Source of the DNA: Candidatus Praeruminimicrobium purgamenti
GTDB taxonomy: Bacteria > Elusimicrobiota > Endomicrobiia > Endomicrobiales > Endomicrobiaceae
Length of the DNA stretch: 51,616 nucleotides
Reading direction: 5' to 3'
Assembly: GCA_018433585.1 (NCBI GenBank)
Contig: JAHDQW010000010.1
Span: 1 to 51,616, forward strand
In this document: piece after piece, positions 16,759 through 39,351 of the stretch
Layout: every line of letters begins with the position of its first letter
Numbering within the stretch: position 1 is the stretch's first letter
Notes under the pieces: model-generated
The model's database searches: none
What the model was told of the DNA's origin: nothing
The model's input: only the letters and a program-made list of their open reading frames with translations
Position numbers and translations under genes: made by a program

Positions 16759-17150
16759 GGGGGTGAGTTGGGTTCGACGGGAATGAAAGAGGTACAGATA
16801 GCAAGCCCGAGTTGGCCGATGGCTCGGTAAAAATCGGCTAAACAATAAACGATAAACAAATCGTTCCTAACAGCATGTTCAAACCTTTTATGGGTTTTGG
16901 AGCAATGCCAATAGCTGCTTAGTCAGCTACATTTTACCTTTGACACCTACTATTAGGATAAAATGACAAGAGTAGGTTAGTATTAATTTGCTTGTTCCGT
17001 CAAATTAATATGAAATTAAAACGGTGCTGGTTTATAAGATAGTCCCGTCCGGTGATAGTCTTATAAACGAGAACAAAATTCCGGACTAAGCTTGTAGCGA
17101 TCTTACTGAAACATTTTCGGACGCGGGTTCAATTCCCGCCACCTCCACCA
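16759..17150 (+). ncRNA. ssrA: tmRNA (SsrA), one-piece
   Basis: The 5' end GGGGGTGAGTTGGGTTCGAC and the 3' end GGGTTCAATTCCCGCC-ACCTCCACCA are hallmark tmRNA ends. GGGGGTG pairs with CACCTCC to form the acceptor stem, and CCA is encoded. The RNA rescues stalled ribosomes by trans-translation. A tag frame can be followed back from the stop TAG near 16918; it ends ...FMGFGAMPIAA, matching the hydrophobic AA ending recognised by ClpXP. The resume codon cannot be fixed by eye. If it is near 16843, the tag would be about 25 residues, longer than the usual ten or so. Confidence 0.95.
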
Positions 17151-33754: not shown

Positions 33755-35584
33755 CTAAAACTTGATTTCTATACCGCTGTAGCCTGTAATTCCCGACATC
33801 GGATATCCGTAACTCAACTGGTATTTTTCATTTGTTAAATTATCGCATTTCGCCCAGACAGAGATATTTTCAGTTATTCTGTAATCAGCTTTTACGTCAA
33901 CTAAGCAATAATCGTTCATATAATTTCTATATTCATTCATAATTGTCGTAACATAAGAAACACCGGCTGTCACTTTCAATGCTTTTACAGGAACAACCGT
34001 AAGCGTATAATTGATATTATGCATCGGTCTGTAAGTCAAATCTCTTTTCAGTTTCGTGTCTTCCGCTCTTAAATACGTATAGTTCAATTTGTGCTTAATT
34101 TCTTTTGACATATCATAAGCGCACTCAATTTCATAACCGTATTGTCTTGACTCATCAACATTTTGAGCCTGATATATCCATCCGCCTGTATCTATATTCT
34201 GGATTAAATCCTCTGTCGTAATATAAAATCCGGTTAACGCGGCGGAAAATTTATCTTTTGAATATTCTACCCCGATATCGCTTGATACTCCTTTTTCAGG
34301 TTTAAGATCAGGATTTGCGACGTAATAAGTATTATCTCCGTAAATCTGCCCGAAGGACGGAGCATTCCATACTTTGCTGGTATTTGCAGAAATTTTTATT
34401 TCATCAGTCGCCTTGAAAATAGCCGATAATGCCGAAGTGGAAACGTCTTCATAATCTGTATTTTGATCTGCTCTTACTACAGGAATAAGAGTCAGTTTCC
34501 CGATATTAAAAACAGCCTGAAGATAACATGCCGTATTTTCTCTGTTTCTGTTAATTTGTTCCGTTCCTGAAATAATATTTTCCTGTTTATAAGTTGTTTT
34601 GTCCCATTCAACCCCGGCTGAAACTAAATGTTTATATGTGAATACGGATTTTATTCCGGTATTTAAAGTATTGTATTTTGTTCCGTAATCATTCCAAGAG
34701 TTGCCGGTAATATCATAAGCCTTTCTGCTGTTATCGGCGCTATAACCTGATATCTGAATATCAAAATCTTCGGCTTTGGTAAAATAATCTATTTTCAGAT
34801 AGTTATTATTTTCAAACTGCTTCGCTGTAAGAGATGAGAACGAAACCGAACCCGGATTTCCAAAATCGGCATTGTATGCCTGACCGGAAAGAACAATTTC
34901 TGATTTTTCGTCAGGATTTACCGAAAACTTCGCAAAAATATTTTTCGAATCATAAAAAGAATTTTTTCTGTATCCGTCCGATGAAAGAAGTGAAGGGGCC
35001 GCCAATAAAGAAAAGACATCGTTTGCATAGGCGCCGGTAATGCCTGCGTTTACAGTGTTAAACGTCCCGAAAGAAAAATACGGATTAATCTTAGGAGTTG
35101 ACGGTGAAGCTTTTTTCGTAATTACGTTTATGACTCCTCCGAAAGCGCCCGTTCCGTACATTGCGGAACCCGAACCCCTGATAATTTCAACTTTCTCTAT
35201 TATATTTGCCGGTATTGCCGTAAAATCTGCTCCGCCGCCGGTACCGATATCATTTATGCGTCTGCCGTCAACCAGAACCAAGACCTGCCCCGCCGTTGAA
35301 CCTCTCATAAAAACAGACTGCGTCTGTCCCAAAGGTCCGTAACTCTTATACGATATACCTGCTTCGCCGTCTACAACGTCTCCGAGAGTTTTAGCATTTT
35401 TTTCGCGTATTTCCTGCTCTGTTATAACGGTTAAATTAGTTCCCAAATCTTTTAAAGGCTCGGCTGTTTTTGTTAAAGAAAGAAAAACGATTTCGTCATC
35501 TTCGTTCTGATTATCGCTGAAGATATCCGCTGCGGCAATATTTGTAAATAAAAACATTATTAATAAAAAACTTATCTTTTTCAT
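33755..35584 (-). CDS. btuB: TonB-dependent cobalamin receptor, BtuB-like
   Basis: The 609-residue outer-membrane receptor has a signal peptide (KKISFLLIMFLFTNIAAADI), a TonB-box-like stretch near EIVFLSLTKTAE, a plug domain (about 45-160; TVITEQEIREKNAKTLGDVV, VFMRGSTAGQVLVLVDGRRI, IEKVEIIRGSGSAMYGTGAF) and a 22-strand barrel ending in the aromatic GYSGIEIKF. It binds corrinoid outside the cell and passes it through with energy from TonB-ExbBD, which are not in this window. B12 specificity is inferred from the adjacent btuFCD, cobO and the cobalamin riboswitch upstream. GGAG lies about 11 bases before the ATG. Confidence 0.93.
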   Translation of the reverse strand: MKKISFLLIMFLFTNIAAADIFSDNQNEDDEIVFLSLTKTAEPLKDLGTNLTVITEQEIREKNAKTLGDVVDGEAGISYKSYGPLGQTQSVFMRGSTAGQVLVLVDGRRINDIGTGGGADFTAIPANIIEKVEIIRGSGSAMYGTGAFGGVINVITKKASPSTPKINPYFSFGTFNTVNAGITGAYANDVFSLLAAPSLLSSDGYRKNSFYDSKNIFAKFSVNPDEKSEIVLSGQAYNADFGNPGSVSFSSLTAKQFENNNYLKIDYFTKAEDFDIQISGYSADNSRKAYDITGNSWNDYGTKYNTLNTGIKSVFTYKHLVSAGVEWDKTTYKQENIISGTEQINRNRENTACYLQAVFNIGKLTLIPVVRADQNTDYEDVSTSALSAIFKATDEIKISANTSKVWNAPSFGQIYGDNTYYVANPDLKPEKGVSSDIGVEYSKDKFSAALTGFYITTEDLIQNIDTGGWIYQAQNVDESRQYGYEIECAYDMSKEIKHKLNYTYLRAEDTKLKRDLTYRPMHNINYTLTVVPVKALKVTAGVSYVTTIMNEYRNYMNDYCLVDVKADYRITENISVWAKCDNLTNEKYQLSYGYPMSGITGYSGIEIKF

Positions 35585-35711
35585 TTTTTTATTTTCTCCG
35601 GTTAAATTAAATTTACATAAAAAATACTTTTATTTTCGGCATGTCTCTGCTGATTTGATATAAAAATCATAATGGTATTTCAAATCAAATCATAAAAATT
35701 ATCAGATTCTT

Positions 35712-35735
35712 TTAAGTTTTACGAATCAAAACCAT
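35712..35735 (-). CDS. Possible upstream peptide MVLIRKT
   Basis: Immediately after the btuB riboswitch is a strong ACGGAGGAATATT-ATG ribosome binding site, followed by a 7-codon frame, MVLIRKT-stop, that ends 127 bases before the btuB start. The btuB gene itself has a weaker, distant GGAG. The frame is seen directly; whether it is translated and whether it controls btuB is inference. Confidence 0.35.
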   Translation of the reverse strand: MVLIRKT

Positions 35736-35739
35736 AATA

Positions 35740-35910
35740 TTCCTCCGTGGGGATTTAGACTTAACGATCGGTCTCCTGACTTAGAGCTGAATCTTAAATA
35801 TTTCCTTCCCAGTTATGCAACCAGTGAAAATATTTTTCTTTGTCTGCTCATCACAGTAGCCGGACTGTATCTGATTTTCACAGATTTCCCGTACATCGTT
35901 ATAAATATTT
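35740..35910 (-). promoter_or_regulatory. Cobalamin riboswitch upstream of btuB
   Basis: On the minus strand it holds GAAAATCAGATACAGTCCGG, then GGCTACTGTGATGAGC (the RCTACTG core), CTGGGAAGG, and the B12 box AGTCAGGAGACC at 35770-35781, followed by AAATCCCCACGGAGG. These are the conserved elements of the class-I cobalamin riboswitch. No terminator hairpin with a T-run follows; instead a strong GGAGGA lies at its 3' edge, so translational control by masking the ribosome site is likely. It fills most of the 330-base gap between btuD and btuB. Confidence 0.92.
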
Positions 35911-35914
35911 CAAT

Positions 35915-36703
35915 CTACTTCTCTTTACTGTCAGTATATATCGGTATTACAACAGGTTTTTGCGATACCGGATTTGTTTTAACTACAACTTTAGCGTCAT
36001 AAACTTTCTCTATATCCCTGTAATTTAATACTTCGTCACATGTACCGTTGTTAAATACTTTCCCGCCGTCAATTAAAACCAGATGAGAACAAAATTCTCC
36101 GGCAAGATTTAAATCGTGAATAGTAGTAATAATAGTTTTATTATATTTTTGATTCAGCATTCTTAAAATTTTAAATATTGAAGACTGGCTGCCGATATCA
36201 AGATGAGCCGTAGGCTCATCAAGAGCTATTATGTCGGTTCCTTGAGAAAGTGTCTGAGCCATAAGTACTTTCTGCTTTTCGCCTCCGGAAAGCTCGCTTA
36301 TGTTTCTTTCGGCAAATTCCGTAACGCCTGTAAAATCCATTGCTTCCCTGACTATATTAAAATCTTTTCCTGAAGCGTGCTTAAAAATATTCATATACGG
36401 ATACCTGCCGAACATAATAAAATCTTTAACGGTAAAAGGAAAATCAAACTGCATTGTTTGAGGCATAAAAGCAATTTTTTTTGCCAAAACAGATTTTTTT
36501 ATTTTATAAATATCAATATCGTCTATAAAAATATTTCCTGAAAACGGTTTAATAAGTCCGGACAAAGACTTAAGAAACGTTGTTTTTCCAACGCCGTTTT
36601 TGCCTATTATTCCGACAAAATCTCCGTTTTTTATGCTTAAAGAAATGCCCTTTATAACTTCATGTCCGGCATATCCGCAAGATAAATTATGCGCTTTTAT
36701 CAT
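35915..36703 (-). CDS. btuD: Cobalamin/iron-chelate ABC transporter ATP-binding protein, BtuD-like
   Basis: The 262-residue ATPase has Walker A GKNGVGKTTFLKSLSG, signature LSGGEKQKVLMAQTL, Walker B IIALDEPTAHLD and an H-loop TIHD. It matches the FecE/BtuD family, which powers import of B12 or siderophores. I chose ATG at 36703, with GGAAG upstream and the ATGA overlap with the btuC stop. A longer frame from 36826 runs through btuC coding sequence and is not real. The B12 assignment rests on the neighbouring genes and riboswitches. Confidence 0.93.
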   Translation of the reverse strand: MIKAHNLSCGYAGHEVIKGISLSIKNGDFVGIIGKNGVGKTTFLKSLSGLIKPFSGNIFIDDIDIYKIKKSVLAKKIAFMPQTMQFDFPFTVKDFIMFGRYPYMNIFKHASGKDFNIVREAMDFTGVTEFAERNISELSGGEKQKVLMAQTLSQGTDIIALDEPTAHLDIGSQSSIFKILRMLNQKYNKTIITTIHDLNLAGEFCSHLVLIDGGKVFNNGTCDEVLNYRDIEKVYDAKVVVKTNPVSQKPVVIPIYTDSKEK

Positions 36704-37695
36704 AATGTTATCTTCCCGGAAGGCTTTAAAAGCAAAAACATAAAAAATATACCGCCTACTATACTGGTTATTACTCCTATAGGAATTTCTACAGGAGCAA
36801 ATAAAATTCTGCTTAACGCGTCGCATAAAGGTAAAAATATGGCGCCTGCCAGAACAGACATAGGTATCAGAACTCTGTGATCATTGCCTACAAATTTTCT
36901 TGTAATATGAGGAATCATAAGGCCTACAAAACCTATAACTCCGCAGCAGCTGACTATCAACGCGGTCATCAATGAACTGAGAAGAAAAATATATTTGACT
37001 GTTTTTGTAGTATTTACTCCCAAAGACGAAGCCTTTTCATGACCGAGAGTTATTATATTTATAACATTACCAAACAAACACAGTATAATAATCCCTGCGA
37101 CGATAACAGCCGTTATTACAGGAAGCAGCCTTTCGTCAAAAGAAGACAAGTTCCCCATAAGCCACATAAAAGCCGAATAAAGCTGATCGGATGACAATAT
37201 CGCAAAAATCAGCAATACTGCCGAAGAAAAAATATAACTTGCGACAACGCCTGAAAGAATCATTCCGTTTGAATCAAACTCTTTCTTAACATTCAAAGAA
37301 TATACAAGACAAATAGACATCATTGCGCCTGTAAACGCAAATAACGGCAAAAATATCCAGCTTACGGAAGCCATCCCCAAAACAAAGCCGACTGAAGCTC
37401 CGAAAGCAGCGCCTCCGGAAATACCCAAAGTAAACGGATCCGCCAAAGGATTTCTTAAAATTCCCTGAAAGACGCATCCGCTTGCCGAAAGACCGGCTCC
37501 GGCAATAACAGCCAGGAAAACTCTCGGGAACCTTATCTTGTTTATAATTGTATATGTATTATCATCGACCTTCGAAAACAACGATTTCAAAGTCATAACA
37601 ACGGAAATATCGCTTATGCCGGACGTCATTGAATAAATAAAAGTTATGATAAGCAGCAGCACAGCCAACGAAAATTTAAAACAGTTTTTACTCAT
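36700..37695 (-). CDS. btuC: ABC transporter permease, BtuC/FecCD family
   Basis: The 331-residue inner-membrane permease has about ten hydrophobic helices. It carries FecCD family sequences: FPRVFLAVIAGAGLSASGCV, FQGILRNPLADPFTLGISGG, AAFGASVGFVLG, GFVGLMIPHITRKFVGNDHR and GEIPIGVITS-like VEIPIGVITSIVGGIFF. It forms the pore of the B12 importer with BtuD and BtuF. It overlaps btuF by eight bases and btuD by four, so the operon is translationally coupled. Confidence 0.94.
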   Translation of the reverse strand: MSKNCFKFSLAVLLLIITFIYSMTSGISDISVVMTLKSLFSKVDDNTYTIINKIRFPRVFLAVIAGAGLSASGCVFQGILRNPLADPFTLGISGGAAFGASVGFVLGMASVSWIFLPLFAFTGAMMSICLVYSLNVKKEFDSNGMILSGVVASYIFSSAVLLIFAILSSDQLYSAFMWLMGNLSSFDERLLPVITAVIVAGIIILCLFGNVINIITLGHEKASSLGVNTTKTVKYIFLLSSLMTALIVSCCGVIGFVGLMIPHITRKFVGNDHRVLIPMSVLAGAIFLPLCDALSRILFAPVEIPIGVITSIVGGIFFMFLLLKPSGKITL

Positions 37696-39107: not shown

Positions 39108-39262
39108 CGATAAAAACAAAATCTCTTCCCTAGAAAAGCGAACAAAAGTTCATAATAAAAATAAATAATAGACCGGACTAACAGTTTTTACTGATTACCG
39201 TTGCTGGGCAGTGTCCGAATCGCGTTTAAGCTTACGGAACTTCCTTTACTTATTTTTTTGAA
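39108..39262 (-). promoter_or_regulatory. Cobalamin riboswitch upstream of cobO
   Basis: On the minus strand the core reads GTAAAGGAAGTTCCGTAAGC, TTAAACGCGATTCGGACACTG, CCCAGCAACGGTAATCAG, and then AGTCCGGTCTAT as a divergent B12 box. CGGACACTGCCCAGCAACGG equals the RCTGNCCCGCAACGG core of many cobalamin riboswitches. A terminator follows. It differs from the btuB element in core type and mechanism. The sequence is diverged from consensus, so the call is less certain than that of the second riboswitch. Confidence 0.78.
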
Positions 39263-39277
39263 AAGAACAAATTTAAT

Positions 39278-39351
39278 TGGGCCTGGTAGGACTTGAACCT
39301 ACGACCATTCGATTATGAGTCGAGTGCTCTAACCAACTGAGCTACAGGCCC
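39278..39351 (-). tRNA. tRNA with CAT anticodon (Met or Ile2)
   Basis: A 74-base cloverleaf starts GGGCCTGTAGCTCAGTTGGT. The anticodon loop is CTCATAA with stem CTCGA/TCGAA (one mismatch at the outer pair), the T arm is GTAGGTTCAAGTCCTAC, the discriminator is A, and no CCA is encoded. The anticodon CAT fits elongator Met or the lysidine-modified tRNA-Ile that reads AUA. The CTCATAA loop and the GGTCGTAGGTTC T arm resemble tRNA-Ile2 of other bacteria, but I cannot decide. Confidence 0.93.

Follow-up and report, generated by a model that had tools for sequence, protein, structure and literature searches.

The window, i.e. the whole 51,616-nt stretch of Candidatus Praeruminimicrobium purgamenti DNA analyzed here, contains on its minus strand a run of genes in the order cobO/btuR, periplasmic binding protein, FecCD permease, ATPase, btuB. 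An AdoCbl riboswitch (RF01482, 54.1 bits) at 39119-39271 (-) stands at the head of this run; the hairpin and T-run behind it resemble an intrinsic terminator. A co-directional tRNA gene (39278-39351, -) ends just 6 nt upstream of it. Another B12 riboswitch, considered below, lies directly before btuB, and the run seems to contain two B12 switches with differing outputs.

The btuD-like ABC transporter ATPase gene upstream of btuB, co-directional with it, occupies positions 35915-36826 (-; the start is a mechanical one from the ORF list). The cobalamin riboswitch aptamer (RF00174, 35749-35915, -) begins at the stop codon of this gene, and its match (77.5 bits, E 1.9e-17) exceeds the gathering score of the model, 31.5. 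The candidate kissing loop L5, UCCGG, was read off the model match and the sequence at 35860-35864 (-). Next comes the P13/L13 hairpin UCC[CCACGGA]GGA (35741-35753, -), which holds the Shine-Dalgarno (SD) sequence ACGGAGGA. It faces a mini-ORF of 7 codons, MVLIRKT (35712-35735, -), where the minus strand reads ...CCCCACGGAGGAATATT-ATG GTT TTG ATT CGT AAA ACT TAA, with the ATG at 35735-35733 and the stop codon at 35714-35712. A spacer of 127 nt (35585-35711, -) separates this stop from the btuB ATG at 35584. The spacer includes an A+T-rich inverted repeat (35651-35692, -) and the core GGAG of the btuB SD (35596-35599, -), 11 nt before the ATG. The btuB gene itself (33755-35584, -) encodes a TonB-dependent receptor of 609 aa with matches to the plug (E 3.1e-25) and barrel (E 3.1e-42) domains; the closest named relative of the protein, from an Endomicrobiaceae bacterium (Elusimicrobiota), is 67% identical, by which the genome was placed in this family. 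The mini-ORF is not an earlier in-frame start of btuB (frame offset 1), and the spacer is not a repeated element, being present in a single copy in the genome.

The strength of SD sites was estimated as the duplex energy with ACCUCCUU, an anti-SD assumed for this genome rather than read from its own 16S, and amounts to -9.5 kcal/mol for the mini-ORF and -6.6 kcal/mol for btuB. Thus the sequence and the energies agree with the first-pass annotation, which had the strongest SD of the leader facing MVLIRKT rather than btuB, and btuB starting 127 nt further on from a weaker site. The mini-ORF site is exceptional for the genome, as only 5.0% of genes reach -9.5 (median -5.05; 318 crudely called genes in 400 kb). 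The btuB site is weaker, yet it is about level with the best quarter of genes and hence not poor for this genome. Moreover, none of the 134 leaders that are 60 nt or longer in 400 kb of the same genome holds an ATG with an SD of -9.5 or stronger that opens a frame of 12 codons or fewer. The strong-SD mini-ORF is not a chance feature.

Out of 76 genomes in the family, 30 contain an RF00174 match, as do 34/83 of the order and 136/340 of the phylum. We fetched and tested 110 riboswitch loci, covering at phylum level the listed sites down to E of about 5e-8; in 57 of these loci the switch is followed by a btuB-like gene. In the order, 22 of 29 riboswitch-btuB leaders contain a mini-ORF of 4-10 codons at the equivalent place: 18/25 in the window's family and 4/4 in four other families. 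The window frame is thus matched in 21 further leaders of the order, as well as in all six leaders (6/6) of family f29, which belongs to the same phylum but lies outside the window's class; the lack of conservation in related genomes that the first-pass annotation had named as counting against its proposal was not observed. Examples of the encoded peptides are MKRQLIINSE, MKQSFIIDG, MIFNT, MTILT, MTVNSE, MIVIDDR, MNDG, MSTK and MQVKS. In the remaining 7/29 leaders of the order the strong site (SD from -9.3 to -11.3) starts btuB directly, and both arrangements occur within genera g4 and g7. The SDs of the mini-ORFs range from -9.5 to -12.0 (21 of the 22 were measured, the mini-ORF of G077a having been counted by eye), while the own sites of btuB in these leaders range from -4.6 to -8.0. 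The other 22 riboswitch-btuB loci of the phylum (57 minus the 29 of the order and the six of f29) have no mini-ORF. Two matches of the filter, G235q98 and G246p, were discarded as artefacts, since one overlaps the btuB start and the other begins within the aptamer match.

A profile search for btuB relatives across bacteria returned 80 loci, including 60 named loci with a riboswitch in front. Here one switch per locus was read, and L170 was omitted as a near copy of L153. Two of these 60 have such a frame, both of them Elusimicrobiota loci (L111, L116) included in the counts above; one further ATG frame of equal SD strength, MTV, was found in a Methylobacter (L156). The family has 18 nrd-type switches, none of which is followed by an ATG frame of at least two codons with an SD-like motif. 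The other RF00174 switch of the window genome, L001 (G000:C8:202633-202836, -), precedes a protein whose N-terminus presumably resembles the ATP cone of ribonucleotide reductase; its relatives share a differing downstream element (GTTGTCGCGGAATAACTT and CCAGGGTGC), without a mini-ORF.

In the 25 leaders of the window's family the SD lies within a hairpin NCC[loop]GGN, common to the leaders with direct btuB starts and those with mini-ORFs. The closing pair of this hairpin is U-A in 11 leaders, A-U in eight, G-C in four and unpaired in two, so that 23/25 are paired, with a mean of 10.6/25 in shuffles; it varies even inside genera g4 and g7. Where the loop is 7 nt long (18 leaders), covariation scores 0.342 vs 0.076 in shuffles (0/500 as high), and it is destroyed when the partners are slid. 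Such compensatory changes at the closing pair are those of a P13 hairpin in the expression platform, and judging by them the SD hairpin belongs to the riboswitch. The SD of the mini-ORF thereby lies inside the expression platform, as in a riboswitch-gated uORF. P13 of the window is short (3 bp); its start region folded alone is no better than shuffles (z +1.50), and the same holds for the minimum free energy of the whole leader (z -0.21).

In a related switch the functional kissing pairs are formed by CCG of L5 (consensus UCCCG) and CGG of L13, according to PMC10653944. In the window, CGGA of the L13 loop is complementary to UCCG of the presumed L5. L5 is nearly invariant in family f1, leaving no covariation with L13, and because this loop hardly varies in the window's family, we infer the L5-L13 kissing from complementarity.

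In seven leaders of genus g13 the mean identity is 0.87 from the SD of the mini-ORF to its stop codon, 0.77 in the aptamer, 0.81 in the first 150 nt of btuB, and only 0.34 in the spacer. All 28 frames are at most 10 codons long, with a chance of about 5e-4 in shuffled sequences over 15 genera treated as independent, and all of them use ATG, as demanded by the search filter. On these comparisons we conclude that the start, the stop and the shortness of the mini-ORF are kept.

The mini-ORF also accompanies the switch. Even when the threshold is relaxed, RF00174 does not match at six full-length btuB loci of the family, and the mini-ORF was found in 0/6 of them vs 18/25 with the switch, a chance of C(13,6)/C(31,6) = 0.0023 if calculated by hand with phylogeny ignored. 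This comparison covers full-length btuB genes and excludes the btuB fragments of G009, G030, G046 and G052 for which no riboswitch is listed. In two of the six loci (G075 and G065) BtuB is 70 and 62% identical, respectively, to that of the window, and the btuB SD is -8.0. In the six relatives L212, L218, L225, L227, L229 and L230 the btuB riboswitch and the mini-ORF are both missing, with the order ATPase-btuB kept.

The inverted repeat that the first-pass annotation had placed in the gap before btuB is real, its arms (35651-35665 and 35678-35692) being 87% complementary and folding alone with -10.4 kcal/mol (z -3.24). Still, it looks incidental to the switch: no link to the switch was found, the repeat falls short of the btuB SD, and the spacer where it is located is the least conserved part (as measured in genus g13 rather than in the genus of the window). 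On the btuB strand of the 127-nt spacer no terminator-like site was found, promoter-like sites are at chance level, and a phage search with the leader gave no match. Short palindrome-like repeats between the mini-ORF and btuB were also seen in L024, L036, L038 and other relatives, resembling a tolerated insertion site.

Most likely, the riboswitch gates the mini-ORF and not btuB directly, because the SD is in a covarying hairpin, the frame recurs with the switch, and the region from the SD to the stop outlives the spacer; all of this is comparative sequence evidence. This sustains the earlier suggestion that the output of the switch is the small frame rather than btuB, as the SD lies in the covarying P13/L13 hairpin directly behind the aptamer. 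The reading that we tentatively favor, at slightly below even chances, is a translational B12 off-switch with the mini-ORF as its direct target and btuB following through the fate of the mRNA (Rho termination or decay). When B12 is bound, L5 would hold the P13/L13 hairpin and mask the SD of MVLIRKT. When it is absent, ribosomes would start at MVLIRKT, read seven codons and stop, and this traffic at the head of the leader would protect the message downstream of btuD against early Rho termination or decay, btuB then being translated from its own ordinary site. The B12-dependent hiding of the SD, the translation of the frame in the cell and the link between mRNA fate and btuB are what we infer here. 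The comparative backing is that the SD hairpin belongs to the switch, that one and the same site starts either the mini-ORF or btuB, and that the mini-ORF is maintained and accompanies the switch.

Since the btuB SD (-6.6) is stronger than the genome median, leaky, B12-independent translation of btuB would be expected unless the message is lost. The RNA-binding domain of Rho is encoded in the genome. The btuB riboswitch of E. coli triggers Rho, according to PMC11162775, and the Mbox of M. tuberculosis controls a uORF along with Rho termination, the main termination site being upstream of the uORF (PMC12810186); with the site so placed, Rho may act independently of uORF translation even in that system. 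In the leaders studied here no Rho site was seen in the spacers, as these are not C-rich (C 0.08 and G 0.12 in the window; C exceeds G in just 7/28 leaders). We rank mRNA fate first from the E. coli and M. tuberculosis precedents, with neither tight coupling nor unmasking found here, followed by long-range reinitiation and a by-product of the switch, and then by structural unmasking and an active peptide.

Ribosomes that enter at the B12-gated strong site could also finish the mini-ORF, remain on the mRNA and reinitiate at the moderate btuB site, a relay that we consider rather unlikely. It would suit the weaker btuB sites in leaders with a mini-ORF, and expression of M. tuberculosis PPE2 does require uORF translation with termination-reinitiation, but that case depends on a tight AUGA overlap (both as given in PMC11260477). 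Here the stop and the start neither overlap nor are closely spaced, as they would be in a termination-reinitiation pair: they are 127 nt apart in the window and 51-445 nt apart in the 28 leaders (median 121.5), with a range from 101 to 214 in g13 alone, and the relative reading frame of the mini-ORF and btuB varies among leaders. Another reading is that the mini-ORF is a by-product, the hairpin and the SD being a conserved part of the switch from which insertions moved btuB away, leaving a useless short frame in front of a gene served by its own site. The presence of both arrangements inside g4 and g7, the spacers unrelated in sequence and the mixed peptide counts given below fit this explanation. 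We consider it as unlikely as the relay. Against it, the SD-to-stop region outlives the spacer (0.87 vs 0.34), every frame over 15 genera stays within 10 codons (about 5e-4), the mini-ORF is absent where the switch is gone, and a switch without effect on btuB ought to decay.

Translation of the mini-ORF might instead refold the RNA and free the btuB site, as in the structural attenuation by Salmonella mgtQ, an 8-codon intergenic ORF freeing the mgtB site (PMC8092293), and the window spacer does contain an inverted repeat. We consider this improbable, as the repeat stops short of the btuB SD, the spacers are not conserved in g13, and in the folding model the btuB site is as open with the mini-ORF free as with it occupied: across 27 leaders (all 28 except G080a, whose spacer is 445 nt long) its mean unpaired fraction is 0.57 free and 0.55 with the mini-ORF occupied. 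The proposal of the first-pass annotation that translation of the frame sets the structure of btuB mRNA thus finds no support in silico; its other variant, an effect on the stability of that mRNA, is neither backed nor contradicted by these results. Least probable is that the peptide itself acts, by ribosome stalling or in trans. Related cores recur within g4, g5 and g13, and seven hand-picked sister pairs yield 11 synonymous vs 6 nonsynonymous changes (23% expected, p 3e-4), but counting on btuB trees in four groups gives 13 synonymous to 24 nonsynonymous changes (p 0.06), and from genus to genus the peptides vary, some being as short as MNDG and MSTK. As the tree-based count failed to uphold the hand-picked pairs, selection on the peptide is not claimed.

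Beyond the mRNA-fate reading of this locus, a wider and more doubtful proposal is that this riboswitch class has been rewired in the phylum, so that the ligand would gate a content-free start-stop pair 4-10 codons apart. The pair would serve as a distance-tolerant, modular ribosome relay to a gene up to several hundred nucleotides away, whatever the sequence, structure or length of the spacer.

Riboswitch-gated uORFs are already in print for M. tuberculosis. As described in PMC11260477, uPPE2 likewise has its SD in the L13 hairpin of a B12 off-switch and is its first target, but it overlaps ppe2 by AUGA, with reinitiation coupling and no SD for ppe2, whereas frames of the window type have 4-10 codons, lie 51-445 nt away from a btuB with its own SD, and span an order and a second class. 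The pe20 Mbox with Rv1805A is similar in that a riboswitch with a translational platform controls a conserved uORF, along with Rho termination; it differs, according to PMC12810186, in sensing Mg2+ rather than B12 and in its highly conserved peptide, that of the window type differing between genera. The E. coli btuB riboswitch shares the B12 control of btuB at translation initiation, but acts on btuB itself, no leader ORF being named in the sections of PMC11162775 considered. Salmonella mgtQ is similar as an 8-codon intergenic ORF aiding the next gene; it unmasks an SD, of which there is no sign in the window type, and no riboswitch aptamer is mentioned for it in the abstract of PMC8092293. 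The stop codon of E. coli mdtU is 106 nt before its gene and its translation affects Rho termination, but, according to PMC7815308, this uORF has 34 codons, responds to spermidine and is conserved at the C-terminus. Among the open PubMed Central papers listed in our searches, none treats riboswitches of Endomicrobia or describes a mini-ORF located between a B12 switch and btuB. What is new relative to the known riboswitch-gated uORFs is how small the frame is, how far it lies from the gene, that this gene is btuB, and that the arrangement extends across an order and into a second class.

Annotation would assign the riboswitch to btuB, while the regulated start codon is probably that of an unannotated 7-codon frame. 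Should the relay exist, assigning a riboswitch to the gene closest to it can give the wrong target, and the wealth of natural spacers, together with sister species that have no mini-ORF or no switch, would make the control of a gene by a far-upstream start-stop pair testable. Elsewhere in the window, a tmRNA gene is located at 16759-17150 (+) with a score of 169.4 bits.
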